From positions 186,001-250,000 of the forward strand of contig NZ_JAVIXR010000001.1 in assembly GCF_031157525.1 (NCBI RefSeq): a stretch of 64,000 nt of DNA, written 5' to 3'. The first letter of the stretch is position 1. The number at the start of each line of letters is the position of its first letter. Under the pieces are notes generated by a model. That model had not been told where the DNA came from. It made no database searches and was given only the letters and a program-made list of their open reading frames with translations. Positions 6,759-32,389 of this stretch are shown in pieces. The DNA comes from Marinobacter sediminicola (lineage in GTDB: Bacteria > Pseudomonadota > Gammaproteobacteria > Pseudomonadales > Oleiphilaceae). The translations under genes were made by a program, and so were the position numbers.

Positions 6759-6792
6759 CCGCGAGTGCGGTGATGCGTTATAAGTTAGTAAG

Positions 6793-6820: not shown

Positions 6821-6862
6821 TGGCCTGTTTAGCTGTATGGACTGGTAGATCCAGTGGAGTGC

Positions 6863-6876: not shown

Positions 6877-6926
6877 AGTTACACTTCTATGATTGGGCAA
6901 AAACAATGATAAAAAGGGAGCTATCC

Positions 6927-11875: not shown

Positions 11876-11903
11876 CCCGCGTTGCTTTTCAGCATCCACA
11901 AAT

Positions 11904-11931
11904 AAAACGCCAACCCGAAGGTTGGCGTTTT
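11904..11931. terminator. Bidirectional terminator between the oxidoreductase and acnB
   Basis: AAAACGCCAACC (11904-11915), CGAA loop, GGTTGGCGTTTT (11920-11931): a 12-bp perfect stem with A-run and T-run on either side. It can stop both converging transcripts. Confidence 0.9.
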
Positions 11932-16262: not shown

Positions 16263-16276
16263 ACAAAACGCTCTAA

Positions 16277-16322
16277 ATCGATGAAACCGAATAGGGTTAT
16301 GGGAATATCCCATTTCATCGAT
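16277..16322. promoter_or_regulatory. Nested inverted repeats in the finR-fpr intergenic region
   Basis: ATCGATGAAA (16277-16286) and TTTCATCGAT (16313-16322) form a perfect 10-bp inverted repeat, 26 bases apart. Inside lies ATGGGA-ATA-TCCCAT (16299-16313). The block is about 15 bases upstream of the regulator's start and 85 upstream of fpr. It is a good candidate LysR operator controlling both genes. Confidence 0.6.
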
Positions 16323-17287: not shown

Positions 17288-18709
17288 CTAGATCGCGAAG
17301 CCACCCAGTTTGGTTTCCAGATATTCTTCAATACCTTCCTGAGCACCTTCCCGACCAAGCCCGCTATTTTTCATGCCGCCGAATGGGGCCGCTGCACTGG
17401 TTGGGTTGATGTCGTTAATGCCAATAATGCCGAAATCCAGAGCTTCAAATGCGCGCATCGCTGTCGTCATGTTGTTGCTGTAGATGTAAGCCGCTAGCCC
17501 AAACTCGGTGTCGTTGGCCATGGCAATCACATCGTCGTCGGAGCGATAGGTGATAACAGGAGCGACCGGGCCAAAGGTTTCTTCCCGGTAGATTTTCATT
17601 GCCGGCGTTACGCCGGAGAGCACGGTTGGAGCGTAGAAATAGCCGTTTGAAAGGCCGTTTTCTGCTAAACGTTGCCCACCGGTTTCCAACGTAGCGCCTT
17701 GAGCAATTGCATCTTGAACCTGCGCATCGACCTTCTGAATGGCCTGCTCATTGATCAACGGGCCGATACCAACGCCTTCGGACATACCATTACCGGCTAC
17801 CAGGCGAGTGGCCCGACTGGTTAGTTCCGCAATAAACGGCTTCAGGTGGTCTTCGTGTACAAATATCCGGTTAGGGCTAATGCAAGCCTGACCGGTGTTA
17901 AGAAACTTAACCAGAGACAGGCCTTTCGCTGCGTGTACTGGATCGGCATCGGGGAACACAATGGCGGGTGCATGTCCGCCAAGCTCCATAGACACTCGCT
18001 TCATGTTGGCTGCCGCCAGCGCGTTCAACTTTTTGCCAACGGGAGTGGAGCCGGTGAACGTCAGTTTTCGGACTCTTGGATCAGTACAAAAAGCATCGCC
18101 TACCCGCTCTGGATCCCGCACTGTGAGCATATTGATAACTCCTGCGGGAAAGCCTGCTTCTGCGAAGATCTCGATCATGGCCTTAGCGCACAAGGGCGTG
18201 CTTTCAGCGGGTTTCAGTATTACCGTGCAGCCGGCAGCTAATGCAGGTGCCAGCTTGCGCGTAATCATGGAAATCGGGTAGTTCCAGGGCGTTATTGCGC
18301 CGACCACACCCACGGGCGATTTCTGGACAATAAAGCGCTGATTTTCACGGGCGGAAGGAATGCTCTGCCCGTATACACGCTTGGCTTCTTCAGCGAACCA
18401 CAGCAGGAAATCTGCGCCGTACTGTACTTCGTTGAGTGATGCTTTCAGGGGTTTTCCCTGTTCGCGGGTCATCAATTCAGCCAGCTCACGCTTTTGCCGA
18501 ATCATCAGCTCCCAGGCCCGGTAAAGCAGTTGGGAACGGTAATGAGCCGTGGTTTTCTTCCATTCTTTAAAGGCACAGTCTGCGGCCGCGATGGCGGCCT
18601 CAATGTCTTGGTCTGTGCAGTTGGGCACTTGCCCGATGATCTCGCCCGTTGCCGGGTTGGTGACCGAGAGCTCAGAACGCCCGGTTAACCATTCACCGTT
18701 TATGTACAT
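17288..18709 (-). CDS. NAD(P)-dependent aldehyde dehydrogenase, succinate-semialdehyde type
   Basis: Aldehyde dehydrogenase of 473 aa with the catalytic Cys in NTGQACISPNR, the general-base Glu in MELGGHAP and the cofactor motif FTGSTPVGKK. PWNYPISM and EETFGPVAP are also standard. It resembles GabD-type succinate-semialdehyde dehydrogenases. It is the last gene of a minus-strand operon with malonyl-CoA decarboxylase, a PhaB-type reductase and an acyl-CoA dehydrogenase, 23 bases after the latter. No gabT is nearby, so another semialdehyde, such as malonate semialdehyde, is possible; that is inference. Confidence 0.88.
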   Translation of the reverse strand: MYINGEWLTGRSELSVTNPATGEIIGQVPNCTDQDIEAAIAAADCAFKEWKKTTAHYRSQLLYRAWELMIRQKRELAELMTREQGKPLKASLNEVQYGADFLLWFAEEAKRVYGQSIPSARENQRFIVQKSPVGVVGAITPWNYPISMITRKLAPALAAGCTVILKPAESTPLCAKAMIEIFAEAGFPAGVINMLTVRDPERVGDAFCTDPRVRKLTFTGSTPVGKKLNALAAANMKRVSMELGGHAPAIVFPDADPVHAAKGLSLVKFLNTGQACISPNRIFVHEDHLKPFIAELTSRATRLVAGNGMSEGVGIGPLINEQAIQKVDAQVQDAIAQGATLETGGQRLAENGLSNGYFYAPTVLSGVTPAMKIYREETFGPVAPVITYRSDDDVIAMANDTEFGLAAYIYSNNMTTAMRAFEALDFGIIGINDINPTSAAAPFGGMKNSGLGREGAQEGIEEYLETKLGGFAI

Positions 18710-18732
18710 GAGGCTTTACCTTCTGACTGGCA

Positions 18733-20511
18733 TTAAAATTCAATCTCTGGAAGCGCCATTATGGCATCGTCACCAGATCGTATCGCGCTCAGATGTGATG
18801 AACAACGCGGTAAGATGTGGTCAATAAAAAAGCTGGTTGTCGTCAGCTTGTTGGCTGCAAATGTGCTCTGGTCAGTCAGATCATTTGCCGCAGCGATAGC
18901 TGCTTTTAGCATCAACCAGCCTGCCGTTACTGTGGAGCTCAACATAAGGTAGTCGAATGCAACGGCACCGGTGAATTGGTCGTCATTACCCCGCTCAAGA
19001 ACCACGCGCGTCGCATCCTCAAGGAAGGCGACTGCCTGGTCAAATTTTGCTTGGCGCTCTGCGGTTAACACACAATTGCTTTGCAGTGAACCAGTGAATG
19101 GGCGCATGTCTTCAATCAGTTCAGCCATTGCCTGACCCTGATCGCGAACGGTTTTCCGACCAATCAGGTCCAGTGCCTGAATGCCATTAGTACCTTCATA
19201 AATCGGCAGAATGCGGGCGTCACGATAGTGCTGTGCAGCGCCCGTCTCTTCGATAAATCCCATGCCGCCATAGCATTGGATGCCCAAAGAGGTAACTTCC
19301 TGGGCGATTTCTGTGCACCAGCCCTTCACCAGAGGTGTGAGCAGGTCTACTCGGCGCTTATAACGAGCCCTGATGTCGTCTGGCAGGTTCTCCGCATTGG
19401 CGTAATCGACGGCCACGCAGCCGGTGTAGGCGAGACCGCGCGCAGCTTCGGTCAATGTTTTCATGATCATCAGCATTCGGCGTACGTCCGGGTGCTTGAT
19501 GATAGGTGACACGCCTTGTTCGCCGGGAGCCGTGCCTTGAGTGCGCTCCAAGGTATAATCCCGGGCCTGCTGATATGCGCGCTCGGAAATGGACACGCCT
19601 TGCAAACCAACGGTCAGGCGGGCGTTATTCATCATTGTGAACATGCAGGCCAAACCACGATTTTCCTCGCCCACCAGATAGCCAATGGCACCCTCATTGT
19701 CGCCATAACTCATGACGCAGGTTGGGCTGGCGTGGATGCCGAGCTTATGTTCCAGCGAGACCGCCTGGCAGTCGTTTCGCTCCCCGGGCTCACCGGAAGC
19801 ATCCGGGAGATATTTGGGTACGGCAAACAGTGAGATGCCCTTTACCCCCGGAGGGGCATCAGGCAAGCGAGCGAGCACAAGGTGGATAATATTCTCCGCC
19901 ATGTCGTGCTCACCCCAGGTGATGAAAATCTTTTGACCCTTTATCCGGTATACATCGCCATCCGGACGGGCTTGAGTGCGAATGCCTGATAGGTCTGAAC
20001 CAGACTGCGGTTCGGTAAGATTCATGGTTCCGGTCCATTGTCCGGAAATCATTTTCGGCAGTAACAGCTGTTTAAGCTGATCGCTGCCCTTCTCGGAAAG
20101 CGCTTCAACCGCTCCTTGAGACAACAGCGGACAGAGCCCCCAGGCCATGTTCGCGGCATGCCACATTTCCTGAACAGGAATGGCCAGTGAGAAAGGCAGG
20201 CCTTGGCCACCAAACTCCGGGTCAAACTGCAGGCTAGCCCAGCCACTTTCCGCATACTGCTGGTATGCGTCTCGGAAGCCGGCAGGCGTGACCACATTGA
20301 GGTCAGGATCCAGACGTACACCGGTTTGGTCTCCGATGACGTTGGTTGGTGCGATGACGGAACTTGCAAAGCGAGCGGCTTCTTCAAGAATGGCGGCGAC
20401 GACATCCTCGGATGCGTCTTCATAACCGCACGCTTTGGCCATTTCTGAAAACCCTGCGACCTGCTGCAGGGTGAACATCATCTCACGGGTGGGTGCTCTG
20501 AACGCTGTCAT
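18733..20511 (-). CDS. Acyl-CoA dehydrogenase, DmdC-like long form
   Basis: FAD enzyme that introduces a 2,3-trans double bond into acyl-CoA. The 592 aa length and the C-terminal extension after the dehydrogenase core place it in the long subgroup, which includes DmdC (3-methylmercaptopropionyl-CoA dehydrogenase). Signatures are MNLTEPQSGSDLSGIRT, KIFITWGEHDM, QCYGGMGFIEETG and the catalytic Glu439 in PIYEGTNGIQALDL. Its start has AGGGAG. It sits 11 bases after phaB in the same operon. This subgroup is broad and many members act on ordinary acyl-CoAs, so the sulfur substrate is only a possibility. Confidence 0.9.
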   Translation of the reverse strand: MTAFRAPTREMMFTLQQVAGFSEMAKACGYEDASEDVVAAILEEAARFASSVIAPTNVIGDQTGVRLDPDLNVVTPAGFRDAYQQYAESGWASLQFDPEFGGQGLPFSLAIPVQEMWHAANMAWGLCPLLSQGAVEALSEKGSDQLKQLLLPKMISGQWTGTMNLTEPQSGSDLSGIRTQARPDGDVYRIKGQKIFITWGEHDMAENIIHLVLARLPDAPPGVKGISLFAVPKYLPDASGEPGERNDCQAVSLEHKLGIHASPTCVMSYGDNEGAIGYLVGEENRGLACMFTMMNNARLTVGLQGVSISERAYQQARDYTLERTQGTAPGEQGVSPIIKHPDVRRMLMIMKTLTEAARGLAYTGCVAVDYANAENLPDDIRARYKRRVDLLTPLVKGWCTEIAQEVTSLGIQCYGGMGFIEETGAAQHYRDARILPIYEGTNGIQALDLIGRKTVRDQGQAMAELIEDMRPFTGSLQSNCVLTAERQAKFDQAVAFLEDATRVVLERGNDDQFTGAVAFDYLMLSSTVTAGWLMLKAAIAAANDLTDQSTFAANKLTTTSFFIDHILPRCSSHLSAIRSGDDAIMALPEIEF

Positions 20512-20522
20512 GGTTTACTCCC

Positions 20523-21272
20523 TTAGCTCATGTACTGGCCGCCGTTGACCGACATATTGGTGCCGGTCACGAAGCTTGCTTCGTCCGCTGTGAGATAGAC
20601 GACGGCTCTGGCAATGTCTTCAGGCTTGCCAAGGTGGCCAACAGGGATGCCCGCAACAATGTTGTTCAGCACTTTTTCAGGTACCTGGCGCACCATGGGG
20701 GTGTCGATGTAGCCAGGGGATACCGAGTTTGCAGTTACGCCTTTGCGAGCGCCTTCCTGAGCAATGGATTTGGTGAATCCATAAATGCCTGCTTTGGTGG
20801 CGGCATAGTTGCTTTGGCCAAACTGGCCTTTCTCGCCGTTGAGCGACGAAATGTTAACGATGCGGCCAAAACCACGCTCGCACATGTTTTCGAACACTTG
20901 CTGGCACATGTTGAACATGGAAGTCAGGTTCACATTGATAACCTGATTCCACTGTTCTGGCTGCATTCTCTTCAGCGGTGCGTCGTTGGTGATACCGGCG
21001 TTGTTGACCAGAATGTCGATGGGCCCCAGATCCTGCTCTACAGCGGCAGTAAATGCTTTACAGGCTTCAAAGTCGGTTACGTCGAGCGGGTAGATAGCCA
21101 CGTCAACACCCTCTTCACGAAGGCTGGCCTGCCAGTCTTTTGCTTGTGCTGTGAACTCTTCACCGGGTAGGTGAGTGCCCACCACTTTCCGGCCCTGAGC
21201 GGCCAGTGCCTTACACATGGCGGTACCCAGGCCACCGGCTGCTCCGGTAATAACTGCGATACGATTAGTCAT
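20523..21272 (-). CDS. phaB: Acetoacetyl-CoA reductase-type SDR
   Basis: NADPH-dependent short-chain dehydrogenase of 249 aa that interconverts acetoacetyl-CoA and (R)-3-hydroxybutyryl-CoA. The cofactor motif TGAAGGLGTAMC, NNAGITND, the catalytic Ser in NISSLNGEKGQFGQ and the YAATKAG Tyr-Lys pair are present. NGEKGQFGQSNY is characteristic of PhaB. AAGGAG lies before the start. No PHA synthase is in the window. Here it is between malonyl-CoA decarboxylase and the acyl-CoA dehydrogenase, so it may serve oxidation of 3-hydroxyacyl-CoA rather than polymer synthesis. Confidence 0.9.
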   Translation of the reverse strand: MTNRIAVITGAAGGLGTAMCKALAAQGRKVVGTHLPGEEFTAQAKDWQASLREEGVDVAIYPLDVTDFEACKAFTAAVEQDLGPIDILVNNAGITNDAPLKRMQPEQWNQVINVNLTSMFNMCQQVFENMCERGFGRIVNISSLNGEKGQFGQSNYAATKAGIYGFTKSIAQEGARKGVTANSVSPGYIDTPMVRQVPEKVLNNIVAGIPVGHLGKPEDIARAVVYLTADEASFVTGTNMSVNGGQYMS

Positions 21273-21299
21273 GGTGTTCTCCTTACGTTTCAGGGTGGT

Positions 21300-22667
21300 T
21301 TATTTCAAAAGTTTCTTGATATTGGATGACAGGGAAATGGTTCCCTCTGAGGTGTACTGGTTACTGCGATGTACGATTTTTGGAAGCTCGTACAGATAGT
21401 TCACCATCAACCCGGCTGATTGCTTTAGGCCTTTGTCCGATGTGTCTGCCATCCAGTTGAGCCGCGCGAGTTGCGCACCATTGCTCAAATGGAAGTTTGC
21501 GACCGGATCGTTTGCACGGGATGTGCCGGGCTTGGTTGAGCTTAGATAGGTCGCAGCAAGTTTCATGATGGCTTCTTGCTGGGTGCCAGTGGCATCCCCC
21601 TGACTAGCGAGCACGGGATCACGTGGCGGCGGTGTGTTGAGCCATTGTTCCCCCCCAGGTAACTGCATGAGCTGGTCGGCTGACGTGCTGTCCAACCAGC
21701 GGCGGAAGCCGGGGATGGGTGACAGGGTGGCAAACTGCTTAAGCTGAGGGAACTCCACTTGCAGCTTGCTGACCACTTGTTTGATCAGGAAATTACCGAA
21801 GCTGATGCCCGCTAAGCCTTGTTGGGCGTTAGAAATCGAGTAGAAAATGGCGGTATCGGCTTTATCAATGTCCTCTGTTGGCGCGTGCTCGTCCAGAAGT
21901 CTTTGAACATTGTCGGCAAGGCCATTCACCAAAGCCACCTCCACAAAAATCAGTGGTTCGTCTGGCATGTTCGGGTGGATAAAAGCGAAGCAGCGGCGGT
22001 CGAAGTCCAGTCGGTTCTTGAGGTCGCTCCAACTCTTGATGGCGTGCACTGCTTCATAGGCGATCAACTTTTCGAGCATGGCACCACTGGAGTTCCAGCT
22101 GATCTCTTCCAACTGCAACAAACCGATGTCGAACCACGTGGCGAGCAGGTCACGAAGATCCGTTTCCAATGGCTTCAGCTGTGGATAATCTTTGCGCAGG
22201 CGAAGCAGTTCCTCTCGCATATCCACCAGGAATTTCACCCCGGAAGGTACGCCGTTGAACTGCTTCAGCAGTGCCGTTCGGCTGGGTATCAAAGCCTTGC
22301 GTAAGGACTGGGCGGCTTCTGTTTTCTCGTTGTGCTTGGCGTTGTGCCATTGATCGATAGCGCTCTCGACGGACGCCTCGTTAACGCCGTAATGCTCTGC
22401 AAGCAATCCCAGGAAGCGTGTCCTTCCGGTCGTAGTCAGCTTCAGATAGGCGCGGCCCAACAAGGCTGCCCGCTTGCGAGCTTCTACCTGACCGCCATTC
22501 TCAGAGAGGCAATCGTCTATCCACTCCTTAACGATTGCGATGTCAGATTCCGGGAGGTCTTCCGCAACGCTCAGGATGTCTGAGCCACGACGGCCTACGG
22601 ATTCCAGTCCACCTGAAACCAGCTTCTTGAAGGCCCTTTCAAAAATGCTTACGGGTTGCCTCTGCAT
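21300..22667 (-). CDS. Malonyl-CoA decarboxylase
   Basis: Converts malonyl-CoA to acetyl-CoA and CO2. The 455-aa protein has the all-helical N-terminal domain and the GNAT-like catalytic domain with the family motifs SISNAQQGLAGISFGNFLI and FATLSPIPGFRRWLD; the latter region carries the expected catalytic serine. The start at 22667 (MQRQPVSIF) has GGGAG at 8-base spacing; a longer frame reaches 22817 but is poor and overlaps the promoter region. It is the first gene of the operon and is divergent from the MaoC gene, with a palindrome between them. Confidence 0.93.
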   Translation of the reverse strand: MQRQPVSIFERAFKKLVSGGLESVGRRGSDILSVAEDLPESDIAIVKEWIDDCLSENGGQVEARKRAALLGRAYLKLTTTGRTRFLGLLAEHYGVNEASVESAIDQWHNAKHNEKTEAAQSLRKALIPSRTALLKQFNGVPSGVKFLVDMREELLRLRKDYPQLKPLETDLRDLLATWFDIGLLQLEEISWNSSGAMLEKLIAYEAVHAIKSWSDLKNRLDFDRRCFAFIHPNMPDEPLIFVEVALVNGLADNVQRLLDEHAPTEDIDKADTAIFYSISNAQQGLAGISFGNFLIKQVVSKLQVEFPQLKQFATLSPIPGFRRWLDSTSADQLMQLPGGEQWLNTPPPRDPVLASQGDATGTQQEAIMKLAATYLSSTKPGTSRANDPVANFHLSNGAQLARLNWMADTSDKGLKQSAGLMVNYLYELPKIVHRSNQYTSEGTISLSSNIKKLLK

Positions 22668-22740
22668 GACTGCGACTCCCTTGGTGCAAAGCGGGGTTGT
22701 TTGGATTGATGAGAGAAGGCTACCAGAGCATTTTGAAAAA

Positions 22741-22760
22741 ACCAAGTAAAAGTACTTGGT
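22741..22760. promoter_or_regulatory. Palindromic operator, site 1
   Basis: ACCAAGTA (22741-22748), AAAG, TACTTGGT (22753-22760): a perfect 8-bp inverted repeat with a 4-base spacer, between the divergent malonyl-CoA decarboxylase and MaoC genes. TATAAA (22769-22774) lies 8 bases after it and is a likely MaoC -10, so the dyad covers the -35 position. It is nearly identical to the dyad at 26703-26722. Confidence 0.7.
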
Positions 22761-22816
22761 TTGATGGATATAAACCAGTAGTGTAGTCAGTGAATGGATC
22801 AACATGAGGAAGCACA

Positions 22817-23248
22817 ATGCAAGAATTACACGGGTACTATCTTGAAGATCTGGAAATTGGAATGGAGGCGTTCTACGCCAAGACTATTACTGAAGCAGAT
22901 GTGGTTTTGTTCGCGGGCATCAGTGGTGACGACAATCCGGTACATATTAATGCGGAGTACGCGAAGACTACGCCGTTTAAAGAGCGGATTGTTCATGGCA
23001 TGTTCAGTGCAGCGCTGATTTCAGCTGTATTGGGTACGCGTATGCCAGGCCCTGGGGCGATCTATATAGATCAGCAGATTAGATTTAAAGCACCGGTTCA
23101 CATTGGCGATACGGTGGTTGCGTCTGCAAAAGTTATCGAGATTAACGAAGAGCGTCGCCGAGTAAAGTTGGAAACCATCTGCAAGGTGGGTGATAAGGTT
23201 GTTGCGGAAGGTGTCGCCACCAACATGGTTGATCGCCGCCCTGCGTAA
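22817..23248 (+). CDS. MaoC/PhaJ-type (R)-specific enoyl-CoA hydratase
   Basis: Hot-dog hydratase of 143 aa. The hydratase-2 motif is clear: DDNPVHIN with the catalytic Asp and His, in the frame FAGISGDDNPVHINAEYA, followed by RIVHGMFSAALIS. Such enzymes hydrate trans-2-enoyl-CoA to (R)-3-hydroxyacyl-CoA. The ATG has AGGAA upstream. It is divergent from the malonyl-CoA decarboxylase operon, whose acyl-CoA dehydrogenase and PhaB-type enzyme act on the preceding and following intermediates. It is followed 14 bases later by an isochorismatase-family gene. Confidence 0.92.
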   Translation: MQELHGYYLEDLEIGMEAFYAKTITEADVVLFAGISGDDNPVHINAEYAKTTPFKERIVHGMFSAALISAVLGTRMPGPGAIYIDQQIRFKAPVHIGDTVVASAKVIEINEERRRVKLETICKVGDKVVAEGVATNMVDRRPA

Positions 23249-23262
23249 GTCTGGAGACTATT

Positions 23263-23808
23263 ATGTTAATGGATATAGAGAAGTCCATCGTTGCGGTTAT
23301 TGATGTTCAGGCCCGACTATTGGGTGGAGTGCATGAAGCCGATAAACTGGTGAATAACTGCAGTTGGTTGGTTCGTCTGGCAAAGCTGATGGATGTGCCA
23401 GTAGTCGGATCGGAGCAATACCCGGATGGGCTGGGGCCCACGGAGGAAGGTTTGCGTGAATTGGTGGGCCCGGCCAATATATACGGCAAAGCTCACTTTT
23501 CCTGCATTGACGACCCCGGGTTCGAAAAGGCATTCCAGGCGCATGATCGAAAACAGGTTGTCCTGTGCGGCATGGAGTCTCAAGCCTGCGTGATGCAGTC
23601 GGCGATCAGGCTGCTGGAGAAGGGGTTGGACGTATTTGTGGTGGCTGATGCTATTTCAGCGCGTAACTCATACGACACCGAAGTAGCACTGCGTCGGATG
23701 GAGCAGGCCGGTGCCAGAATTGTCACAAAAGAAATGGTCGGGTTCGAGTGGATACGACGTTCTGATGCGGCTCAATTCAAGGCTTTCAGCAAAGAGTTCC
23801 TGCGCTAG
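23263..23808 (+). CDS. Isochorismatase-family cysteine hydrolase
   Basis: 181-aa hydrolase of the isochorismatase/nicotinamidase fold. The catalytic triad can be traced: Asp in AVIDVQARLL, Lys in YGKAHFSC and Cys in CGMESQACVMQSAIRLL. The form most resembles YcaC-like proteins, whose substrate is unknown. GGAG gives good spacing to the ATG at 23263; a second ATG follows two codons later. It is probably co-transcribed with the MaoC gene. Confidence 0.88.
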   Translation: MLMDIEKSIVAVIDVQARLLGGVHEADKLVNNCSWLVRLAKLMDVPVVGSEQYPDGLGPTEEGLRELVGPANIYGKAHFSCIDDPGFEKAFQAHDRKQVVLCGMESQACVMQSAIRLLEKGLDVFVVADAISARNSYDTEVALRRMEQAGARIVTKEMVGFEWIRRSDAAQFKAFSKEFLR

Positions 23809-23815
23809 TAAGTCA

Positions 23816-23848
23816 CGGGGTCCTGATGCCTTGTGGCTAAGGGCCCCG
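23816..23848 (+). terminator. Stem-loop between the isochorismatase gene and the sensor kinase
   Basis: CGGGGTCCT (23816-23824) pairs with AGGGCCCCG (23840-23848) with one G-T wobble, and GCC-TTGT-GGC forms an inner stem. There is no T-run. It may be a Rho-dependent or leaky end of the MaoC operon, or a leader hairpin for the kinase mRNA. Confidence 0.45.
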
Positions 23849-23904
23849 GAGACCGTCAGAATAGGGTCCGACCAGGCAACCCGAGTTCAGAGAACCCGTT
23901 TCCC

Positions 23905-25425
23905 ATGAAAAATCGCACCCCGGAAGAGGGGCTTACCGCCCTGACCGACGACGCTGAGCGCAACCGCTTGCTGGCGGAAATGGCTGAGCAGTCTACCGAT
24001 ATGATTTCCCGGCACACACCGAAGGATTGGCTGTTTATCTATGCGTCTCCGGCGGTTACGCATTTGCTGGGCTATACGGTCGAAGAAATTGTTGGTATCT
24101 CGGCTTACGATCTCTACCATCCAGACGATGTTGAAGACTTCCGGTTGCGGGCACCCACGGTGAGTTATGACCGGGGTTTGTACACCCATACTTATCGCTT
24201 TCGCTGTAAAGATGGACACTACATCTGGTTGGAAAGTACCAGCCGGACCATTCGAGACCCGGAGACCAATGATATCCGGGAAATCCTTGTGGTGTCTCGG
24301 GATGCAACCCATCGAATCATGGCAGATAAAGCAAGCCGGCGTTTGGCGCGGGTGCTGGAGAGCACTCAGGACCTGGTTATATTTGCCAATCTGGATTTTA
24401 CCGTTTCGCACCTGAACGAAGCCGCCCGGAAAGCTCTTGAAATGGAGTGCATGGAATACAGCTCGTTCCCGCTCTCGAGGCTTGTGACTGAGAAAGGCCT
24501 GGCCACCTTGATGGAAGAAGGCTTTCCGGCAGCAAAGGAAACAGGGAGTTGGCGTGGAGAGCTAACGATGCAAAACCTGAACGCATCTCGCATACCGGTC
24601 CTGCTCGAGCTCTTGGCTCACCGCTCCTTGCATGGGGATATTGAGTATTTCTCACTGGTCGCTCACGATCTCACCGAGAAAAAAGCAGCCGAAGACCAAC
24701 TCAAGCAGTATCAGGCCGAAATTGATCATGCCAGCCGGCTGGTCACTATGGGTGAACTGGCATCGAGCCTGGCCCATGAGTTGAACCAGCCACTCTCCGC
24801 TATGGTGAATTATCTCCGGGGCATTGAACGGCGTTTTGCGGACAAGCCCACTCTCGCGTGGAGCGATGTGGAACTGCCGATTACTCGAAGCATCCGGACG
24901 GCGTTGAGAGCAGGTGAGATCATCCATCGGATGATGGATTTCACGAGAAGGCAGGAGCCAGTCGTTACTCGCCTCAATTTACGGGATTTGATCGGGGAGA
25001 TGATCAACTTCTGCGAGAGTACGGCGGAAAGGCACAATGTGTCCGTAGTTTTTGAGCCCGACTTGAATTTGCCAGACGTTAAAGGTGATCGGGTGCAGTT
25101 GGAACAGGTAGTGTTGAACCTGATCGTGAATGCTGTGGAGGCGAGTGGTTCTGCTGATCGTGACGACGCTGCCATTGTGCGAGTCAGAGTTGTACCTCAT
25201 GAGAGTGGGCAATTAAGAGTAGAAGTTGAGGATCAGGGGCGGGGGATTTCCGAGGTAGATATGTCTCGTCTTTTTGATCGCTTTTTCTCAACCAAGGAAA
25301 CTGGGCTAGGAATGGGGCTGGCCATAAGCCGTTCATTGGTAGAGAATCTTGGTGGCGAGCTTTGGGCAGAAAACCTCCCTACGGGCGGCGCACGTTTTTC
25401 ATTTACTCTCAATATTACTGACTGA
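23905..25425 (+). CDS. PAS-domain sensor histidine kinase (FixL-type)
   Basis: 506-aa kinase without membrane segments, so probably cytoplasmic. Two PAS domains occupy roughly residues 20-140 and 145-260; the first contains ISAYDLYHPDDVEDF and a PAC-like HYIWLESTSRTIRD. The HisKA domain carries the phospho-acceptor His291 in SLAHELNQPLSAM. The ATPase domain has LNLIVNAVEAS, VEDQGRGI and GLGMGLAISRSLVE. An upstream in-frame GTG at 23833 lies within a strong hairpin, so the ATG at 23905 is preferred. The haem ligand of FixL cannot be confirmed by eye. It is paired with the response regulator six bases downstream. Confidence 0.9.
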   Translation: MKNRTPEEGLTALTDDAERNRLLAEMAEQSTDMISRHTPKDWLFIYASPAVTHLLGYTVEEIVGISAYDLYHPDDVEDFRLRAPTVSYDRGLYTHTYRFRCKDGHYIWLESTSRTIRDPETNDIREILVVSRDATHRIMADKASRRLARVLESTQDLVIFANLDFTVSHLNEAARKALEMECMEYSSFPLSRLVTEKGLATLMEEGFPAAKETGSWRGELTMQNLNASRIPVLLELLAHRSLHGDIEYFSLVAHDLTEKKAAEDQLKQYQAEIDHASRLVTMGELASSLAHELNQPLSAMVNYLRGIERRFADKPTLAWSDVELPITRSIRTALRAGEIIHRMMDFTRRQEPVVTRLNLRDLIGEMINFCESTAERHNVSVVFEPDLNLPDVKGDRVQLEQVVLNLIVNAVEASGSADRDDAAIVRVRVVPHESGQLRVEVEDQGRGISEVDMSRLFDRFFSTKETGLGMGLAISRSLVENLGGELWAENLPTGGARFSFTLNITD

Positions 25426-25431
25426 TAATTC

Positions 25432-26070
25432 ATGACCTCTAAAAACGACGCACAAACAGTTTTCGTTATTGATGACGACACGGACGTGAGAGATTCATTG
25501 AAGTGGTTGCTTGAGTCTGTAGGTCTCAATGTTCAAACCTACGAGAATGCGATGGCGTTCTTTGAAGCTTTCGATACCGGCGCGAGTGGCTGTATCGTGA
25601 TGGATGTGCGAATGCCAGGATTGAGCGGCATTAACGCTCAGAAAAAGCTGCCGGAATACAATATTGAGCTGCCGGTGATCATGATTTCGGCCCACGGTAA
25701 TGTCGATATGGCGGTGACGGCCCTGACTCAGGGTGCCATTACATTTATCGAAAAGCCATTTGATGACCAAACCCTGATCGATCATGTGCATAACGCATTG
25801 GAAAGAGATCGGAGCCGGTCTGTTCATCGTCGCTCACAGTCTCGTATACGGGACTGTTATGAACGATTGACCCGGAGAGAGCGCCAAGTACTGGAGTTGA
25901 TCGTTAAGGGGTTGTCTAACCAGGAGGCAGCAGACGAACTCGGTATTAACAGGAAAACAGTTGAAGGCCACCGGGCCAATATGACCGCAAAGATGAAAGT
26001 AGATTCGTTTGCGGAACTGGTACAGGTAGCCATCGCGCTAGGATTGGTACAGGGTATTACAAGCTTGTAA
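25432..26070 (+). CDS. FixJ-family response regulator
   Basis: 212-aa regulator with an N-terminal receiver (VFVIDDDTDVRDSL, phospho-acceptor Asp58 in CIVMDVRMPG, and the conserved Lys in FIEKPFDD) and a C-terminal LuxR-type HTH (LTRRERQVLELIVKGLSNQE, then INRKTVEGHRANM). FixJ-family members such as StyR and TodT bind 6-N4-6 palindromes to activate catabolic operons. Matching palindromes occur about 2.7 kb upstream, 0.6 kb downstream and, weakly, 3.1 kb downstream of this gene. It ends 18 bases from the convergent thioesterase gene. Confidence 0.93.
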   Translation: MTSKNDAQTVFVIDDDTDVRDSLKWLLESVGLNVQTYENAMAFFEAFDTGASGCIVMDVRMPGLSGINAQKKLPEYNIELPVIMISAHGNVDMAVTALTQGAITFIEKPFDDQTLIDHVHNALERDRSRSVHRRSQSRIRDCYERLTRRERQVLELIVKGLSNQEAADELGINRKTVEGHRANMTAKMKVDSFAELVQVAIALGLVQGITSL

Positions 26071-26088
26071 ATCCAACTGCACAACGGG

Positions 26089-26514
26089 TCAAAGCCGAGC
26101 GAGGTTTTCTCTTGCAGCGTCCGGTAACCTGATCGGTCTTTGGGTGTTATCGTCAACGCAAACAATCACCGTTTCAGCGGTCGCGCAACACACCCCATCT
26201 TGAAAGATGCCCTGATATAGCTGTATCGAGCTGTTGCCAACATGCGTGACGGCCGTTCCAATATCTACGGTTCCTGGCCAGTGAATTTCAGCGCTCAGTT
26301 GCAAATTCAGATTGACGATTACGAAGGAGGTACCAGGTGAAGTGAGTGGTGCTTCCGAATCGTAGATCAGCTCAACTCGCCCCGTTTCAATAAACGTTGA
26401 AAATACCGCATTGTTCACATGTCCCTGTCGATCCGTGTCTGCATAGCGCAGTTTGTCGTAGGTGCGATGCGGAAACTGTTCCAGAGTCCAATCTTTAGTC
26501 GCGTCAGCTGCCAT
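26089..26514 (-). CDS. Acyl-CoA thioesterase (4HBT hot-dog)
   Basis: 141-aa cytoplasmic hot-dog protein of the 4-hydroxybenzoyl-CoA thioesterase/YbgC type. The conserved opening YADTDRQGHVNNAVFSTFIE contains the Asp and Asn-rich loop that forms the active site. GGGGGA precedes the start. It is divergent from the molybdoenzyme gene and shares its control region. The acyl-CoA substrate is unknown. Confidence 0.87.
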   Translation of the reverse strand: MAADATKDWTLEQFPHRTYDKLRYADTDRQGHVNNAVFSTFIETGRVELIYDSEAPLTSPGTSFVIVNLNLQLSAEIHWPGTVDIGTAVTHVGNSSIQLYQGIFQDGVCCATAETVIVCVDDNTQRPIRLPDAARENLARL

Positions 26515-26656
26515 TTTCGGTTCCCCCTTTCGTCTGGGCTAAAGGAGTCGGAGCATTGCGCACGGCAGTATGTATGTCAAATTGTCCGTCCCTTCCTGGC
26601 GCGTAAGCCAGCTTTAGCATGGGTGCGTCATGCCGCTCCCCGTCGTTCTTAAGTGC

Positions 26657-26678
26657 ATACCCATACAGGCATGGGTAT
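26657..26678. promoter_or_regulatory. Inverted repeat ATACCCAT / ATGGGTAT
   Basis: ATACCCAT (26657-26664) and ATGGGTAT (26671-26678) are separated by ACAGGC, between the thioesterase and the molybdoenzyme genes. The half-site resembles the TACYNMT heptamer bound by NarL-type regulators, though NarL sites are usually spaced by two bases. It could also form a hairpin in the thioesterase leader. Confidence 0.45.
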
Positions 26679-26702
26679 TTACGCTTAATTAAATTTGCAC
26701 AA

Positions 26703-26722
26703 ACCGAGTACAAATACTTGCT
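26703..26722. promoter_or_regulatory. Palindromic operator, site 2
   Basis: ACCGAGTA (26703-26710), CAAA, TACTTGCT (26715-26722). It differs from site 1 at one base in each half outside the spacer. TATGCT (26730-26735) seven bases later is a plausible -10 for the molybdoenzyme gene, so the dyad again occupies the -35 position. It lies in the divergent region shared with the thioesterase. Confidence 0.7.
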
Positions 26723-26772
26723 TTTGGTCTATGCTGTCTTTTCCTAATAACAAAATGAAGAGGGCTCAACCC

Positions 26773-29115
26773 ATGCCATTTGAGCACGCGAAAAAAGGGA
26801 CGCTTACCAGTAGTCATTGGGGAACCTATCGAGTTCATGCAGATAACGGAAGTATTACCGCTTTAGAAGGGTTCGAGCGGGATGAAGATCCATCGCCCAT
26901 CGGACAAGGTATTGTTGATGTGCTGGACGGGCCCATGCGTATTAAAATGCCAATGATTCGGCGTGGATGGCTGGAAAACGGGCCGGGAAATGCAGGGGGC
27001 GCTCGGGGAGCCGATGAGTTTGTCGAGGTATCCTGGCCTAGAGCAATCAAGTTGGTGGTGGAAGAACTAAATCGTGTGCGCGATCGCTATGGTAACCAGG
27101 CCATCTATGGTGGGTCCTACGGCTGGTCCAGTGCAGGCCGTTTTCATCATGCCCAGAGCCAGCTAAAGAGATTTCTCAACTCGGTTGGTGGGTACACCTA
27201 CTCACTGAATACATACAGCTATGCAGCGGCTGAAGTCACTTTGCCTCACGTGCTCGGGGACTTCTATTCCATGGTCAATGGCGCAACCAGTTGGGACGTT
27301 ATCAAGGAGCACACAAGCCTGTTCGTGGCATTTGGTGGGGCGCCTGCCAAGAATGGCCAGGTGACCAATGGAGGTGTTGGTCGTCATGTGCAGAAGCAGG
27401 GCATGCTGGATGCAGCTTCTAACGGAGTAAAGGTGGTGAATGTTAGCCCCTTGCGTTCAGATGTTCTTGATGAAATGAACGCAGACTGGGTCGCTCTTTA
27501 TCCGGGCAGCGATGTGGCACTTCTCCTGGGTATTGCCCACACCCTCCATACTGAAAATCTGGCAGATACTGAATTCTTATCGACCTATACCGTGGGCTAC
27601 GAACGCTTTCAGCAGTATTTTATGGGCGAGACCGATGGTGTCGTTAAAGACTGCTCTTGGGCCGCGATCAAGACGGGAATCCCAGCTTCTCGCATCCGGG
27701 ATTTGGCGCGAGATATGGCTCGCCAGCGCACAATGATCTCTGTGAGCTGGTCTCTTACCCGACAGGACAACGGTGAGCAACCCTATTGGGCCGCAATCGC
27801 AGTTGCTTCCATGTTGGGGCAGCTTGGGCTGCCTGGCGGTGGTATTGGTTTTGGGTATAGCGCCATGAATGCTATCGGTGCTAATTATCAAGGCATTCCC
27901 GGCGCCTCTCTTCCCCAAGGTAAAAACCCGATAAAGAGCTTTATTCCTGTCGCTAGAGTTACGGACCTGCTTCTCCATCCCGGTAAGCGCTTTGAATACA
28001 ACGGCGTAGTTGGAACCTATCCGGAAATTCGGTTGGTTTACTGGGCGGGTGGCAACCCTTTTCATCACCATCAGGATCTTGTGCGCATGAGAAGGGCATG
28101 GCAGAAGCCCGAAACGATTATTGTCCATGAATGGTGCTGGAACGCTCAGGCTAAACACGCAGATATAGTGCTGCCGGCAGCGACCTTTTTAGAGCGTAAT
28201 GACATCGCTTCATCCAGCCGGGATCCTTTCCTTGTGTACATGCAAAAAGCTGCTGAGCCTGTAGGTCAAAGCCTGACAGACTATGAAATATTCAGCGCGC
28301 TGGCAGAAGAGTTAGGCGCGCGAGAAGCTTTCACAGAAGGCCGCGATGAAGAGCAATGGTTGCAGGTCATTTATGACGAAACCCGGCAAAAAGCGGGTGG
28401 CAGTGGTATTGATTTACCAACTTTTGAAGCGTTCAAGGCAAAGGGGTGGTTCGAGAACTCGATGCCGAAAGAACCACAGGTTTTAATGAAAGCCTTCCGC
28501 GAGAACCCTGCGGCGAATCCACTTGGAACGCCAAGTGGGAAAATAGAGATATTCTCTGAAACTGTCGCTGGCTTCGGTTATGAAGAATGCCCAGGCTTTC
28601 CATTTTGGAGTGAGCCCAAAGAGTGGTTAGGGCAGGAATCCCCCGAATACCCCTTGCACCTGATTTCCAATCAGCCGAAAAACAAACTGCACTCTCAATT
28701 GGATCACGGTTCTTATAGCCGGAAGTCGAAGATAAATGGCCGAGAGCCAGTGGTTATTCACCCGGTTGATGCAAAGGCCAGAAACATTGTAGACGGCAGT
28801 TTGGTTCGCCTTTTCAACGGGCGCGGTGCCTGTTTGTGCTCTGCCGTCGTGAGCGACGAAGTGCGCCCCAGAGTTTTGCAGCTGAGCACGGGGGCATGGT
28901 TTGACCCGCCACAACCGGGAGATTCAGCGATATCTTGCCGGCATGGTAACCCGAATGTTCTTACCCGGGATCAAGGAACATCGCGCCTGGCCCAAGGGCC
29001 GAGTGCATTGTCATGCCTCGTGGAAATTGAATTGTTTGAGGGTGAAGCTTCGGCTATGCCGATGGGCGCCTTTTCGCCTCCCGCAATCCGTAGCGAGCCT
29101 GTTCCGGGTTCATAA
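26773..29115 (+). CDS. Molybdopterin (bis-MGD) oxidoreductase, BisC/TorA/DMSO-reductase family
   Basis: 780-aa molybdoenzyme. TSSHWGTYRVHAD opens the protein as in BisC, without the N-terminal Fe-S cysteines of other members. Ser115 in YGGSYGWSSAGRFHHA is the expected Mo ligand of the S/N-oxide reductase class. Further family signatures are SWSLTRQDNGEQPYWA, GGGIGFGYSAMN, VHEWCWNAQAKHADIVLPAA and LSTGAWFDP. No Tat signal is seen, so it should be cytoplasmic like biotin sulfoxide reductase (about the same length). GAGGG gives the ATG at 26773; a frame open further upstream would run through the operator. The substrate is unknown. A permease follows about 200 bases on. Confidence 0.9.
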   Translation: MPFEHAKKGTLTSSHWGTYRVHADNGSITALEGFERDEDPSPIGQGIVDVLDGPMRIKMPMIRRGWLENGPGNAGGARGADEFVEVSWPRAIKLVVEELNRVRDRYGNQAIYGGSYGWSSAGRFHHAQSQLKRFLNSVGGYTYSLNTYSYAAAEVTLPHVLGDFYSMVNGATSWDVIKEHTSLFVAFGGAPAKNGQVTNGGVGRHVQKQGMLDAASNGVKVVNVSPLRSDVLDEMNADWVALYPGSDVALLLGIAHTLHTENLADTEFLSTYTVGYERFQQYFMGETDGVVKDCSWAAIKTGIPASRIRDLARDMARQRTMISVSWSLTRQDNGEQPYWAAIAVASMLGQLGLPGGGIGFGYSAMNAIGANYQGIPGASLPQGKNPIKSFIPVARVTDLLLHPGKRFEYNGVVGTYPEIRLVYWAGGNPFHHHQDLVRMRRAWQKPETIIVHEWCWNAQAKHADIVLPAATFLERNDIASSSRDPFLVYMQKAAEPVGQSLTDYEIFSALAEELGAREAFTEGRDEEQWLQVIYDETRQKAGGSGIDLPTFEAFKAKGWFENSMPKEPQVLMKAFRENPAANPLGTPSGKIEIFSETVAGFGYEECPGFPFWSEPKEWLGQESPEYPLHLISNQPKNKLHSQLDHGSYSRKSKINGREPVVIHPVDAKARNIVDGSLVRLFNGRGACLCSAVVSDEVRPRVLQLSTGAWFDPPQPGDSAISCRHGNPNVLTRDQGTSRLAQGPSALSCLVEIELFEGEASAMPMGAFSPPAIRSEPVPGS

Positions 29116-29211
29116 ACCTCCAGTTTTTAAACTGTGTAACACCTGGTCAGTGACAAGAAATGTACTCGTGCTATTGAGCAGCACCCGGAGATAAATACAC
29201 TCGCCCACTTT

Positions 29212-29231
29212 ATCGAGTAAAAACCCTTGAT
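29212..29231. promoter_or_regulatory. Degenerate palindromic operator, site 3
   Basis: ATCGAGTA (29212-29219), AAAA, CCCTTGAT (29224-29231), upstream of the permease gene. The left half matches site 2 at seven of eight positions and the right half at five of eight. TATTAA (29240-29245) lies eight bases later, the same geometry as sites 1 and 2. A flanking repeat CCCACTT / AAGTGGG (29204-29210, 29233-29239) encloses it. Confidence 0.4.
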
Positions 29232-29317
29232 CAAGTGGGTATTAATGACTAGTATTTGGGTGGGAATAGTCTCTTCCCTATGCAATTCGAAACTCAGTTG
29301 GATGGAGAACAACAACA

Positions 29318-30715
29318 ATGTCCCTAAAAAAGAGATCAACTGGCGGTGAGCAGCCGTCAGCCTTGGGCGCACTGAACCTTCGTGTGCCCTTTGTGCATTA
29401 CAAAATTGAGATTCCGGATATTCTGCAAGGTGCGATCTTGTGTGTCGTTCCGCTGAGTATTACCGCACTGATGACATCTGTTCTGGGGATTCCGTTTGAA
29501 ATTGCCGTTGCTTTTGTCCTCCTCAACAACATTCTCTATCTGGTACACACGCATTTCGGTGATCCCACGGTTGCCGGTTGGATTACAGCCGGGATTCCGC
29601 TGTATGTAGCCTTCTTGTCGAGCTACCCAGAGGGGGACGCCAGAATACTGGCGTTAATTGCCTTACAGTTAACCGTCTCAGCTATATTTCTTGGTCTGGG
29701 GGTGTTCAAGGGGGCTGATGCGCTGGTGCGGAAAATGCCTGCGTCACTGAAATCAGGCATTTTAATCGGTGCGGGTATTTCGGCCATCATGGGCGAGTTT
29801 GGCGCGGATGGCCGTGTCTGGACAATGCCGATTACCATCTTGACGGGCGCTGTTTTGGGCTTTTTTATGTTGTTCTCAGAGACAGCAAGCCCACTTCGTG
29901 CCCGATACGGCTTCTTTCGCTTTGTCGCCCAATACGGCATAGCTGTGCCTTTTCTGATTGCTTATGTTTTGGGCCTTATTATCGGTGAGGTGGATGCGCC
30001 TGTTATTGAGTGGGGTTTTACCACCATTCCTTTGGGCACTATCTTGCGAGACTACAGCGTGTTCGGGCTGGGCATGCCGCCACTGCAATACTTTATTGAT
30101 GCGATTCCTCTTGCGCTGGCGGCTTATATTATTGCCTTTGGCGACATATTGGTTATGGATTCTTTGTTCAAGAATGCTGATGCTGTTCGCAAGGACGAAA
30201 AATTGGTTTTCAGCCCGCGCCGGAACAGCATCATCGTGGGTATTCGCAATTTGGTGCACGGAATCTTTGCACCCTTTATCAGCCTATCTGGCCCAGCGTG
30301 GACCGGTGGTCAAGCGTTGGTGATTAATCGCTACATGAATAACCCACGTTCGGTGATGGACAGCTATTGGGGTGGTGCGACCAGCCTGTACTGGGGCATG
30401 ACCATTGCCGTTGTGTTGGTTCCTGTTGTGACGTTATTCAAGCCTGGTCTCAATATCGGCATGGCGCTTACGTTACTGATCCAGGGGTATCTGTGTGGGT
30501 ATCTCGCCATCGAAATGCTTGATCGTCAGACCAATCTTGAGCGTGGCATCGCGGTTATTGTCGGTTCCGTACTTGCCGTGCAGGGAGCCGCCTGGGGGTT
30601 GGGTGTCGGGCTTGTACTCTGGTTCTTCCTGGAGAAGAACTGGTTTGCGGATGCATACGTTGCAAAGCATCACGATGACGAAATGGCAGACGATACCGCA
30701 ACCGAACAACGTTAG
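29318..30715 (+). CDS. Solute carrier family 23-like (NCS2-type) permease
   Basis: 465-aa polytopic inner-membrane protein with roughly twelve hydrophobic segments. The region AFGDILVMDSLF followed by a Pro/Gly-rich SLSGPAWTGGQALVINRYM resembles the substrate helices of nucleobase/ascorbate (NCS2) or SulP transporters, but the match is distant. GGAGA lies before the ATG. It is between the molybdoenzyme and an acyl-CoA ligase-like gene on the same strand, with 202 bases upstream holding its own likely promoter. The substrate cannot be inferred; a purine, an organic anion or a sulfur compound are all open. Confidence 0.7.
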   Translation: MSLKKRSTGGEQPSALGALNLRVPFVHYKIEIPDILQGAILCVVPLSITALMTSVLGIPFEIAVAFVLLNNILYLVHTHFGDPTVAGWITAGIPLYVAFLSSYPEGDARILALIALQLTVSAIFLGLGVFKGADALVRKMPASLKSGILIGAGISAIMGEFGADGRVWTMPITILTGAVLGFFMLFSETASPLRARYGFFRFVAQYGIAVPFLIAYVLGLIIGEVDAPVIEWGFTTIPLGTILRDYSVFGLGMPPLQYFIDAIPLALAAYIIAFGDILVMDSLFKNADAVRKDEKLVFSPRRNSIIVGIRNLVHGIFAPFISLSGPAWTGGQALVINRYMNNPRSVMDSYWGGATSLYWGMTIAVVLVPVVTLFKPGLNIGMALTLLIQGYLCGYLAIEMLDRQTNLERGIAVIVGSVLAVQGAAWGLGVGLVLWFFLEKNWFADAYVAKHHDDEMADDTATEQR

Positions 30716-30763: not shown

Positions 30764-32389
30764 ATGGATAATATGTTTGAGCTCGGGCTCGATAAAACAG
30801 ACGCTAGCTACACGCCCCTCACGCCGATTTCTTTTATACAGAGAACGGCCCTGGCGCACCCAACCCGCACCGCGGTTATCCACGGCAGCGTCCGTCGGAC
30901 ATGGGCCGAAACCTACCAACGCTGCTTAAAGTTGGCATCTGCCCTGCGAAAACTGGGCGTTCGGAAAGGGGACACAGTAGCGGCACTCCTGCCAAATATC
31001 CCCGAAATGCTGGAACTGCATTTTGCGGTGCCAATGATTGGAGCTGTTCTGAACGCCCAGAACACCCGGCTTGATTCCAAAACCATGACCTTCATGCTCA
31101 ACCATGGGCGTGCAAAAGTGTTCTTTACCGACATGGAGTACAGTGATCGGTCCCGTGATGCTCTTGTCGGTTGTGATGCCAAGCCGATTGTTATTGATGT
31201 TGATGATCCTAATTTCGCTGGTGGCGAACTGATCGGCAAGATGACCTACGAAGATTTGCTGGCGACGGGTGATGACGATTTCGCGTGGGATATGCCTGAC
31301 GACGAGTGGCAGGCAATTGCCCTGAACTACACGTCAGGCACTACCGGGAATCCAAAAGGTGTGGTTTACCATCATCGTGGCGCGCACCTGAACGCTTTGA
31401 GCAATATCATTGGCTTTGGGTTGCCATCAGGTGCGGTTTATCTCTGGACGCTGCCGATGTTTCATTGCAACGGTTGGTGTTATCCATGGGCGGTAACCGC
31501 TGTAGCAGGCACTCATGTGTGCCTGCGATCTCCACAACCGAAGCCAATATACGATGCCATCGCCGAGCACGGGGTAACTCATCTTTGCGCGGCACCGGTT
31601 GTGTTGAATATGCTTATCAACGCCCCTGAAGAATATAAAAAGCCGTTCAGCCAGCATGTAACCGCAGCTACCGGTGGTGCTGCACCTCCAGCCGCAACGA
31701 TTGCAGCTATGGAATCCATGGGGGTGAAAGTAGTACACCTGTATGGCTTGACAGAAACCTATGGCCCCAGCTTGATCTGTGAGTTCCAGGATGAGTGGCA
31801 TTCTCTGGATGGCAAGGGCAAAGCGGCGAAAATGGCTCGGCAGGGGATATTGTCATTGTCCATGGCAGACATGATGGTGGCAGATCCCGTGACTCTCCAG
31901 CCAGTAGAAAAGAACGGCACGGCGATTGGTGAGCTGTTTGTTCGGGGTAACTCCGTTATGAAGGGGTATCTGAACAACCCGGAGGAAACTACCAAATCCT
32001 TCGGCGGAGGCTGGTTCCATACTGGAGATTTGGGGGTATGGCACACCGACGGTTACGTGGAAATTAAAGACCGCTCCAAAGATATTATCATTTCGGGTGG
32101 AGAGAATATTTCGACCCTTGAGGTGGAAAGTACGCTCTACGATCATCCTGCGGTACTGGAAGCAGCGGTTGTTGCAGCACCCGACAACCACTGGGGTGAA
32201 ATACCCTGTGCGTTTATCACCTTGAAATCCGGCAACGATCACCTCACGGCAGCGGACATTGAAACCTATTGCCGGGCAAATCTAGCAGGCTTCAAAGTAC
32301 CCAAGAAAATTGTATTTATGGATGACTTGCCAAAGACATCGACGGGGAAATTGCAGAAGCACGTGCTGAGGAGTCAGCTTACCGGTTAA
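30764..32389 (+). CDS. AMP-dependent acyl-CoA ligase (AlkK/DmdB-like)
   Basis: 541-aa member of the ANL superfamily that activates a carboxylate with ATP and CoA. The ATP loop LNYTSGTTGNPKGVVYHH, GLTETYGPS, the hinge FHTGDLGVWHTDGYVEIKDR and the C-terminal lysine in KTSTGKLQKHVLR are intact. The overall form fits medium-chain fatty-acid ligases of the AlkK type, which are close to DmdB (methylmercaptopropionate-CoA ligase). It starts 48 bases after the permease and ends at a strong terminator. Substrate assignment needs context; ligases of this group are promiscuous. Confidence 0.9.
   Translation: MDNMFELGLDKTDASYTPLTPISFIQRTALAHPTRTAVIHGSVRRTWAETYQRCLKLASALRKLGVRKGDTVAALLPNIPEMLELHFAVPMIGAVLNAQNTRLDSKTMTFMLNHGRAKVFFTDMEYSDRSRDALVGCDAKPIVIDVDDPNFAGGELIGKMTYEDLLATGDDDFAWDMPDDEWQAIALNYTSGTTGNPKGVVYHHRGAHLNALSNIIGFGLPSGAVYLWTLPMFHCNGWCYPWAVTAVAGTHVCLRSPQPKPIYDAIAEHGVTHLCAAPVVLNMLINAPEEYKKPFSQHVTAATGGAAPPAATIAAMESMGVKVVHLYGLTETYGPSLICEFQDEWHSLDGKGKAAKMARQGILSLSMADMMVADPVTLQPVEKNGTAIGELFVRGNSVMKGYLNNPEETTKSFGGGWFHTGDLGVWHTDGYVEIKDRSKDIIISGGENISTLEVESTLYDHPAVLEAAVVAAPDNHWGEIPCAFITLKSGNDHLTAADIETYCRANLAGFKVPKKIVFMDDLPKTSTGKLQKHVLRSQLTG

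Follow-up and report, generated by a model that had tools for sequence, protein, structure and literature searches.

A mirror-symmetric dyad as the predicted operator of a FixJ-type response regulator at a malonyl-CoA decarboxylase locus of Marinobacter and related genera

RESULTS

Three sites and four predicted promoters

In a stretch of 64,000 nucleotides of Marinobacter sediminicola DNA, hereafter the window, a palindromic dyad lies between two divergent operons that begin with the genes for malonyl-CoA decarboxylase (MCD) and a MaoC-like hydratase, and further sites lie before the genes for a molybdoenzyme and a permease. Centrally placed in this locus are the genes for a PAS-domain sensor histidine kinase and a FixJ-type response regulator (RR). 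We consider it probable, at about 0.8 on sequence evidence, that the dyad is the operator of this RR and serves the MCD and MaoC operons, the operon of the permease and an acyl-CoA synthetase (ACS), and the DMSO-reductase-family molybdoenzyme gene. Three sites are predicted to serve four promoters, two of which share one dyad. An initial annotation of the window had proposed a local regulon under a shared operator, with the FixJ-type RR as the binder, and this outline stands, with the RR as the best candidate, as the motif tracks the RR in both the genus and the order. That annotation had counted three promoters, however, and had overlooked the minus-strand promoter TGGTAGCCT at the first site.

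The two dyads that it described, ACCAAGTAAAAGTACTTGGT (22741-22760) and ACCGAGTACAAATACTTGCT (26703-26722), were present and differed by one base in each half. The dyads exceed chance in the window: a scan allowing three mismatches gave six strand-matches, whereas 100 shuffles averaged 0.79 and reached 5 at most. Four of the six were the two dyads; the remaining matches, at 41219 and 55872, each had three mismatches. When the organism's whole 3.88-Mb genome was searched, the relaxed palindrome ASYRAGTANNNNTACTYRST matched without mismatches only at these two dyads, and the bare dyad at two mismatches was no more common than its reversed control (5+2 vs 1+6). A composite element consisting of the dyad, an 18-base spacer and TANNNT gave exactly three matches in the genome when two mismatches were allowed. 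All three had no mismatch, the reversed control gave none, and they corresponded to both directions at 22741 and to the site at 29212.

Next to the MCD-MaoC dyad, the geometry was compared among relatives. A scan of genome contigs with the RR as query returned 80 loci, and 34 of these (L103-L136, hereafter the named loci) had an RR identity of 62-100%, with the next best loci at 47% or less. Upstream regions of MaoC came from the locus of the window itself, from the genus loci and from the named loci, provided that MaoC was more than 78% identical and at least 300 bases of upstream sequence were available. After duplicates with identical last 120 bases were dropped, 38 regions were left. TANNNT was located exactly 18 bases outside the dyad on the MaoC side in 37 of the 38 regions, with TGCAAT in L135 as the sole exception, and on the MCD side in all 38, always as the extended box TGNTANNNT. 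At other offsets, such boxes were found at 15 of 2374 positions, and TANNNT matches were scattered, in at most 5 of the 38 regions. The regions are related, so these counts are not independent; among the five regions with less than 55% identity in the spacers, the 18-base rule was kept in 4 and 5 of the 5. The single dyad is therefore best described as the predicted centre of a mirror-symmetric promoter pair, located at about -40 if transcription starts 7 bases after the -10 box.

The third site, at 29212-29231, has mismatches at 5 of 16 positions to a perfect palindrome and had been listed as a degenerate copy. It is a real copy, being an exact match to the composite element, and the right half-site followed by 18 bases and TANNNT was found in 27 of 28 distinct permease upstream regions, with TAGTAT in 26 of these 27. 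Because TANNNT recurs at 18 bases in 37 of 38, 38 of 38 and 27 of 28 regions at the MaoC, MCD and permease promoters, the -10 boxes first suggested, TATAAA (22769) and TATTAA (29240), were dropped in favour of TAGTGT and TAGTAT, respectively, each 18 bases after its dyad (Table 1). In several relatives (L220, L223, L225 and others) a second, weaker copy was seen 22 bp, or two helical turns, upstream of the permease operator.

At the molybdoenzyme gene the suggested -10 box TATGCT was retained, and GGTCTATGCTG was found in 10 of 12 upstream regions. A further copy (four or fewer mismatches) stood in five of the 12, about 33 bases farther upstream than the proximal one. Among the 34 named loci, the gene was near full length in 11, reduced to a remnant in L111 and undetected in the other 22, of which L117 ends 203 bases after the RR match. 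The molybdoenzyme is an accessory member. In the L111 remnant (Marinobacter sp. S0848L, 10923-11911, and likewise in L067/L008), only residues 1-61 and 192-468 are left. A search of L111 for the proximal dyad found none, while the distal copy (TCCGAGTAAAAATAATTGGT) was still there, so gene and proximal site seem to decay together.

A 4HBT thioesterase gene on the minus strand within the locus had been listed as a target together with the molybdoenzyme. Of the targets first proposed, MCD/MaoC, the molybdoenzyme and the permease were kept, and the thioesterase is not supported. In L112, which gave no thioesterase match, the site upstream of the molybdoenzyme gene was retained, and in the window the sequence 18 bases out on the thioesterase side is GCGTAA and not TANNNT. 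Against this, G034 and G107 carry a composite element with one mismatch (TTATTT) on the thioesterase side of the molybdoenzyme dyad.

Co-occurrence with the response regulator

In a sample of 124 genomes of the genus, an RR ortholog was called at E <= 1e-70 in 23 genomes, and RRs of 96-100% identity were found in Marinobacter genomes. The strict dyad ACCAAGTANNNNTACTTGGT was present in 22 of the 23 carriers and in 0 of the 101 other genomes, and its reversed control gave no match. The 23rd carrier, G004, has ACCAATTAAAAATACTTGGT, one mismatch from the strict dyad. A Fisher test of 22/23 against 0/101 gave 1.7e-23, but it ignores phylogeny and was not relied on. With up to one mismatch, the composite element matched in 30 genomes, including all 23 carriers. 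Composite sites at MCD, MaoC and the permease were seen in 22 carriers, and G004 had only the first two. The kinase gene of G004 (L070, 9064-10230) was matched as two overlapping pieces, which suggests that it is divergent or interrupted. Seven of the 101 RR-less genomes had one match each, at one mismatch. The reversed control gave 19 matches in 17 of the 124 genomes, of which 17 were in 15 of the 101 RR-less genomes; since the control was more common, the seven matches are at background. Six of the seven were nearly identical in sequence, and the same sequence accounted for an extra match in carrier G094. The permease at 80% identity or more was found in the same 23 genomes as the RR. Nine RR-less genomes have a MaoC relative of 72-78% identity, and no dyad (four or fewer mismatches) was found at MaoC within the 15-20 kb searched in each, with one stray match 4 kb off in L245.

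The wider sample consisted of 390 genomes from 142 genera of the order, with the RR called at E <= 1e-66. The mirror element, searched as ANNNTA-N20-CAAG-N8-CTTG-N20-TANNNT, was found in 15 genomes, compared to 2 for the reversed control. The RR was found in 12 genomes, all of them among these 15, and in the 12 the mirror elements lie between MCD and MaoC. In the three extra genomes, which lack the RR, none of 15 locus genes was found within 1.5 kb of the element. Nine of the 12 RR-bearing loci (four Marinobacter, five named) had already been seen when the pattern was designed, and those of G299, G372 and G294 were new. The kinase, RR, MCD and MaoC genes occurred together in all 34 named loci, and a dyad with four or fewer mismatches was located 76-162 bases before MaoC in 34 of 34.

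Identity of the binder

The RR scored 97.5 bits against PF00072 and 67.7 bits against PF00196, both above cut-off, and is a NarL/FixJ-family response regulator. It is not a FixJ equivalog, with 211.8 bits against NF006900 (FixJ proper) at a cut-off of 255. Among solved structures its closest relative was 1yio, titled 'response regulatory protein' and presumably StyR, and FixJ 5xso was also among the best. The recognition-helix stretch RKTVEGHR was kept or nearly so in 34 orthologs and changed in 7 aligned paralogs.

The FixJ box of S. meliloti is given as TAAGTAATTTCCCTTA (PMC4999443), and its core AAGTA-N4-CCCTT recurs at some of the sites described here. This core was found as CAAGTAAAAACCCTTG in Marinobacterium, on the other strand in Oceanospirillum-type genomes (CAAGGGTTTNTACTTG and similar), and in some permease sites. 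The main site in the window is AAGTA-N4-TACTT and the permease site GAGTA-N4-CCCTT; among the inner halves of 38 sites, the right half was CCCTT in 4, the left half AAGGG in 8, and both had the TA form in 26. Compared to the FixJ box, the outer arms are longer and more perfect (ACC...GGT). The strongest argument for a FixJ-type protein as the probable binder is the likeness to the FixJ-box core, and by the same logic other FixJ-family proteins could use similar sites. The initial annotation had instead compared the dyad to the boxes of StyR and TodT. That box is ATAAACN4GTTTAT, and StyR contacts DNA through K175, V176 and H179 (PMC5874301). The box differs from all three window sites, and the aligned residues of the RR are E, G and A, so the comparison was replaced by that with the FixJ box.

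Several observations weigh against the RR as the regulator of all these sites. In 58 relatives the bare dyad at two or fewer mismatches matched in 56, with the reversed control as high or higher. The bare dyad is thus unusable alone as a marker. The RR, kinase, MCD and MaoC are inherited as one block, so the part of the RR in the co-occurrence cannot be told fully apart from that of its neighbours. The molybdoenzyme promoter departs from the 18-base rule, as its dyad is 11 bases, or one helical turn, nearer the -10 box than at the other sites. At the permease, three Alloalcanivorax/Alcanivorax regions retain the right half only, and no site was found before one Marinobacterium permease (L123). 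In the Motiliproteus loci L139, L141 and L144, an RR of 41-45% identity is encoded beside relatives of ACS and of the acyl-CoA dehydrogenase (ACAD) with no dyad core and no MaoC or MCD matches; these loci may form a sister system that uses a different operator. The MaoC relatives in RR-less genomes that have no dyad may be paralogs, because they are only 72-78% identical and have no adjoining MCD. Finally, a dyad-like sequence with three mismatches, ACAAAGTTAATATACTTGTT, is located elsewhere in the genome (C36:353000-372000, L254, 7045-7064). It is intergenic, between open reading frames at 6164-6994 (-) and 7226-8188 (+), and is followed after 7 bases by TAGTAT, the same layout as at the molybdoenzyme gene, with a kinase and a 33% identical RR paralog downstream at about 8.3-10 kb. 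It is either a chance match, a cross-target or a sign that other FixJ-family members share this type of site.

Genes of the locus and related arrangements

The features are listed in Table 1. The gene order MCD-SDR-ACAD-ALDH (ALDH, aldehyde dehydrogenase) was preserved in most relatives. The nearest relatives of the ALDH are succinate-semialdehyde dehydrogenases, and those of the ACAD are large acyl-CoA dehydrogenases of about 590-600 aa. Two PAS regions were detected in the kinase. The molybdoenzyme scored 928.5 bits against TIGR00509 (BisC S/N-oxide reductase subfamily), below the cut-off of 1017.55, when scored on 26695-29115, a query that includes 26 codons before the chosen start.

Table 1. 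Genes, predicted operators and predicted -10 boxes of the locus (window positions)
Feature	Position	Strand	Remarks
LysR gene	15378-16313		
MCD-SDR-ACAD-ALDH operon	17288..22667	-	Pfam/NCBIfam; gene gaps 11-27 bases
Aldehyde dehydrogenase (ALDH)	17288-18709	-	
Acyl-CoA dehydrogenase (ACAD)	18733-20511	-	
Acetoacetyl-CoA-reductase-like SDR	20523-21272	-	
Malonyl-CoA decarboxylase (MCD)	21300-22667	-	Start at 22667 is the chosen ATG
Extended -10 TGGTAGCCT of MCD operon, predicted	22717..22725	-	18 bases outside dyad
Shared dyad ACCAAGTA-N4-TACTTGGT, predicted RR operator	22741..22760	.	Centre near -40 of either divergent promoter
-10 TAGTGT of MaoC-ICH-kinase-RR operon, predicted	22779..22784	+	18 bases outside dyad
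MaoC-like hydratase	22817-23248	+	Present in 34/34 named loci
Isochorismatase-like hydrolase (ICH)	23263-23808	+	Present in 33/34 named loci
PAS-domain sensor histidine kinase	23833..25425	+	PAS, HisKA, HATPase_c
FixJ-type RR, candidate binder	25432..26070	+	Response_reg and GerE
Dyad ACCGAGTA-N4-TACTTGCT before molybdoenzyme gene	26703..26722	+	7 bases from -10
-10 TATGCT of molybdoenzyme gene, predicted	26730..26735	+	7 bases after dyad
BisC/DMSO-reductase-family molybdoenzyme, 780 aa	26773..29115	+	TIGR00509 below cut-off
Third site ATCGAGTA-N4-CCCTTGAT before permease	29212..29231	+	N4 is AAAA
-10 TAGTAT of permease-ACS operon, predicted	29250..29255	+	18 bases after dyad
PurT-like permease	29318-30715	+	Match to PurT 7tak
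Acyl-CoA synthetase (ACS)	30764-32389	+	AMP-binding; NF006020 above cut-off

After the ACS gene, an open reading frame of 300 aa (32594-33496) had no Pfam/NCBIfam match and was found beside the locus in several relatives. Genes for an FeS-labelled oxidoreductase and ORF300 flank the locus in the window, and in three RR-less genomes (L246, L249 and L250, from G102, G124 and G026) divergent SDR and MaoC genes were found near such genes. This arrangement may reflect a stage that preceded or followed gain of the regulated locus. Elsewhere in the organism's genome (C41:66000-85999, L252, 10178-15557), a 42% identical RR and a 34% identical kinase are encoded divergently from an ACS (57%) and a permease (39%). 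This paralog locus gave no dyad at four or fewer mismatches, and the palindromes in the stretch searched were of another kind. Permease relatives of about 40% identity are common in the genus.

DISCUSSION

In the mechanism that we propose, a signal would lead the PAS kinase to phosphorylate the RR, and the phosphorylated RR dimer would occupy the dyad, whose centre lies some 40 bp upstream of the start when the start is placed by the -10 box. The bound RR would then help RNA polymerase to use promoters with a poor -35 element (TTGGTT or TTGATC/TTGATT) and a poor -10 box (TANNNT), by analogy with StyR, which activates from STY2 at about -40 (PMC2442086). The RR's own operon is among the predicted targets, so the circuit would be autoregulated and positive feedback is expected. 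As the 20-bp dyad would be the common -35 region of both divergent promoters, the two polymerases would exclude each other and fire alternately. There is precedent for one activator site between opposed promoters, since one CRP site can serve two divergent promoters (El-Robh and Busby 2002, via PMC3105977). CRP is a global regulator and was studied in a model system, whereas here the regulator would be a local two-component one and the mirror spacing was exact in 37 of 38 regions.

The main alternative is that the RR binds the dyads as a repressor that blocks the -35 regions until a signal frees it. At the MCD, MaoC and permease promoters the dyad does overlap the -35 region, and at the molybdoenzyme gene it is nearer still to the -10 box; repression by relatives has been described for StyR at STY1/STY3 (PMC2442086) and for R. 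palustris FixJ at nif promoters (PMC13327599). We nevertheless find repression unlikely, because poor -35-like and TANNNT boxes are, in our reading, what is expected of activator-dependent promoters, and the dyad centre near -40 is where StyR activates at STY2. It is less likely still that the dyads are used by another DNA-binding protein encoded elsewhere, with the RR merely a neighbour. The binding by the RR is a prediction, the genome encodes many other regulators, and a LysR gene is located close by. A strong match to this LysR was found, however, in the fetched flanks of only 7 of the 34 named loci (L103-L108 and L112), compared to 34 of 34 for the kinase and RR. The dyad core also resembles the FixJ box, and the strict and mirror elements were absent from RR-less genomes in the genus and the order except for control-level matches. 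Least probable of all is that there is no operator and that AACCAA...TTGGTT represents back-to-back -35 boxes of constitutive divergent promoters: TTGGTT does stand 17 bases from TANNNT on both strands of the window, but the inner bases vary only between AAGTA and AAGGG (and complements) and apart from that show almost the constraint of the outer bases, the dyad 7 bases from TATGCT cannot be a -35 in register at the molybdoenzyme gene, and the dyad element tracks the regulator.

With the RR as the probable activator at the dyad, the system can be placed beside known ones. The FixLJ system of rhizobia likewise combines a PAS kinase with a FixJ-type regulator, but its targets are fixK and nifA and those predicted here are acyl-CoA genes. 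StySR and TodST also include FixJ-type regulators of local catabolic genes, with a different box. The locus was found undescribed in the titles and abstract openings among the literature matches listed (MCD and MaoC, two-component, Marinobacter), with subscription journals largely outside the coverage. The suggestion in the initial annotation of an undescribed local regulon agrees with this, and as far as the literature was searched, the locus appears to be a new FixJ-type local regulon with an unusually exact mirror-symmetric operator.

With low confidence, we suggest that the enzymes oxidise a small organic acid through CoA-linked steps, with malonyl-CoA and acetyl-CoA at the end. The order suggested by the gene families is acid to acyl-CoA, enoyl-CoA, 3-hydroxyacyl-CoA, 3-oxoacyl-CoA, malonyl-CoA and acetyl-CoA, by ACS, ACAD, MaoC, SDR, ALDH and MCD. 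Judged from family names, the three-carbon acid could be propionate, acrylate, 3-hydroxypropionate or a methylthio analogue. A more speculative picture, to which we give somewhat less than an even chance, is that one dimer on TANNNT-N18-dyad-N18-TANNNT can turn an activating surface to RNA polymerase on either side, though to only one polymerase at a time. In this picture the bidirectional promoter would alternate and couple the supply of the enzymes to that of the regulator, and the FixJ box would have become a strictly symmetric switch for an unrecognised route in which a small marine organic acid is oxidised by way of malonyl-CoA.

The comparison provides a concrete predicted regulon of three sites and four promoters for a FixJ-type two-component system of several marine genera. 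The mirror spacing poses the question of whether one activator dimer serves two opposed polymerases in a mutually exclusive manner. By predicting that the genes for ACS, ACAD, MaoC, SDR, ALDH, MCD and the permease belong to one pathway, the regulon may also aid in finding the substrate.

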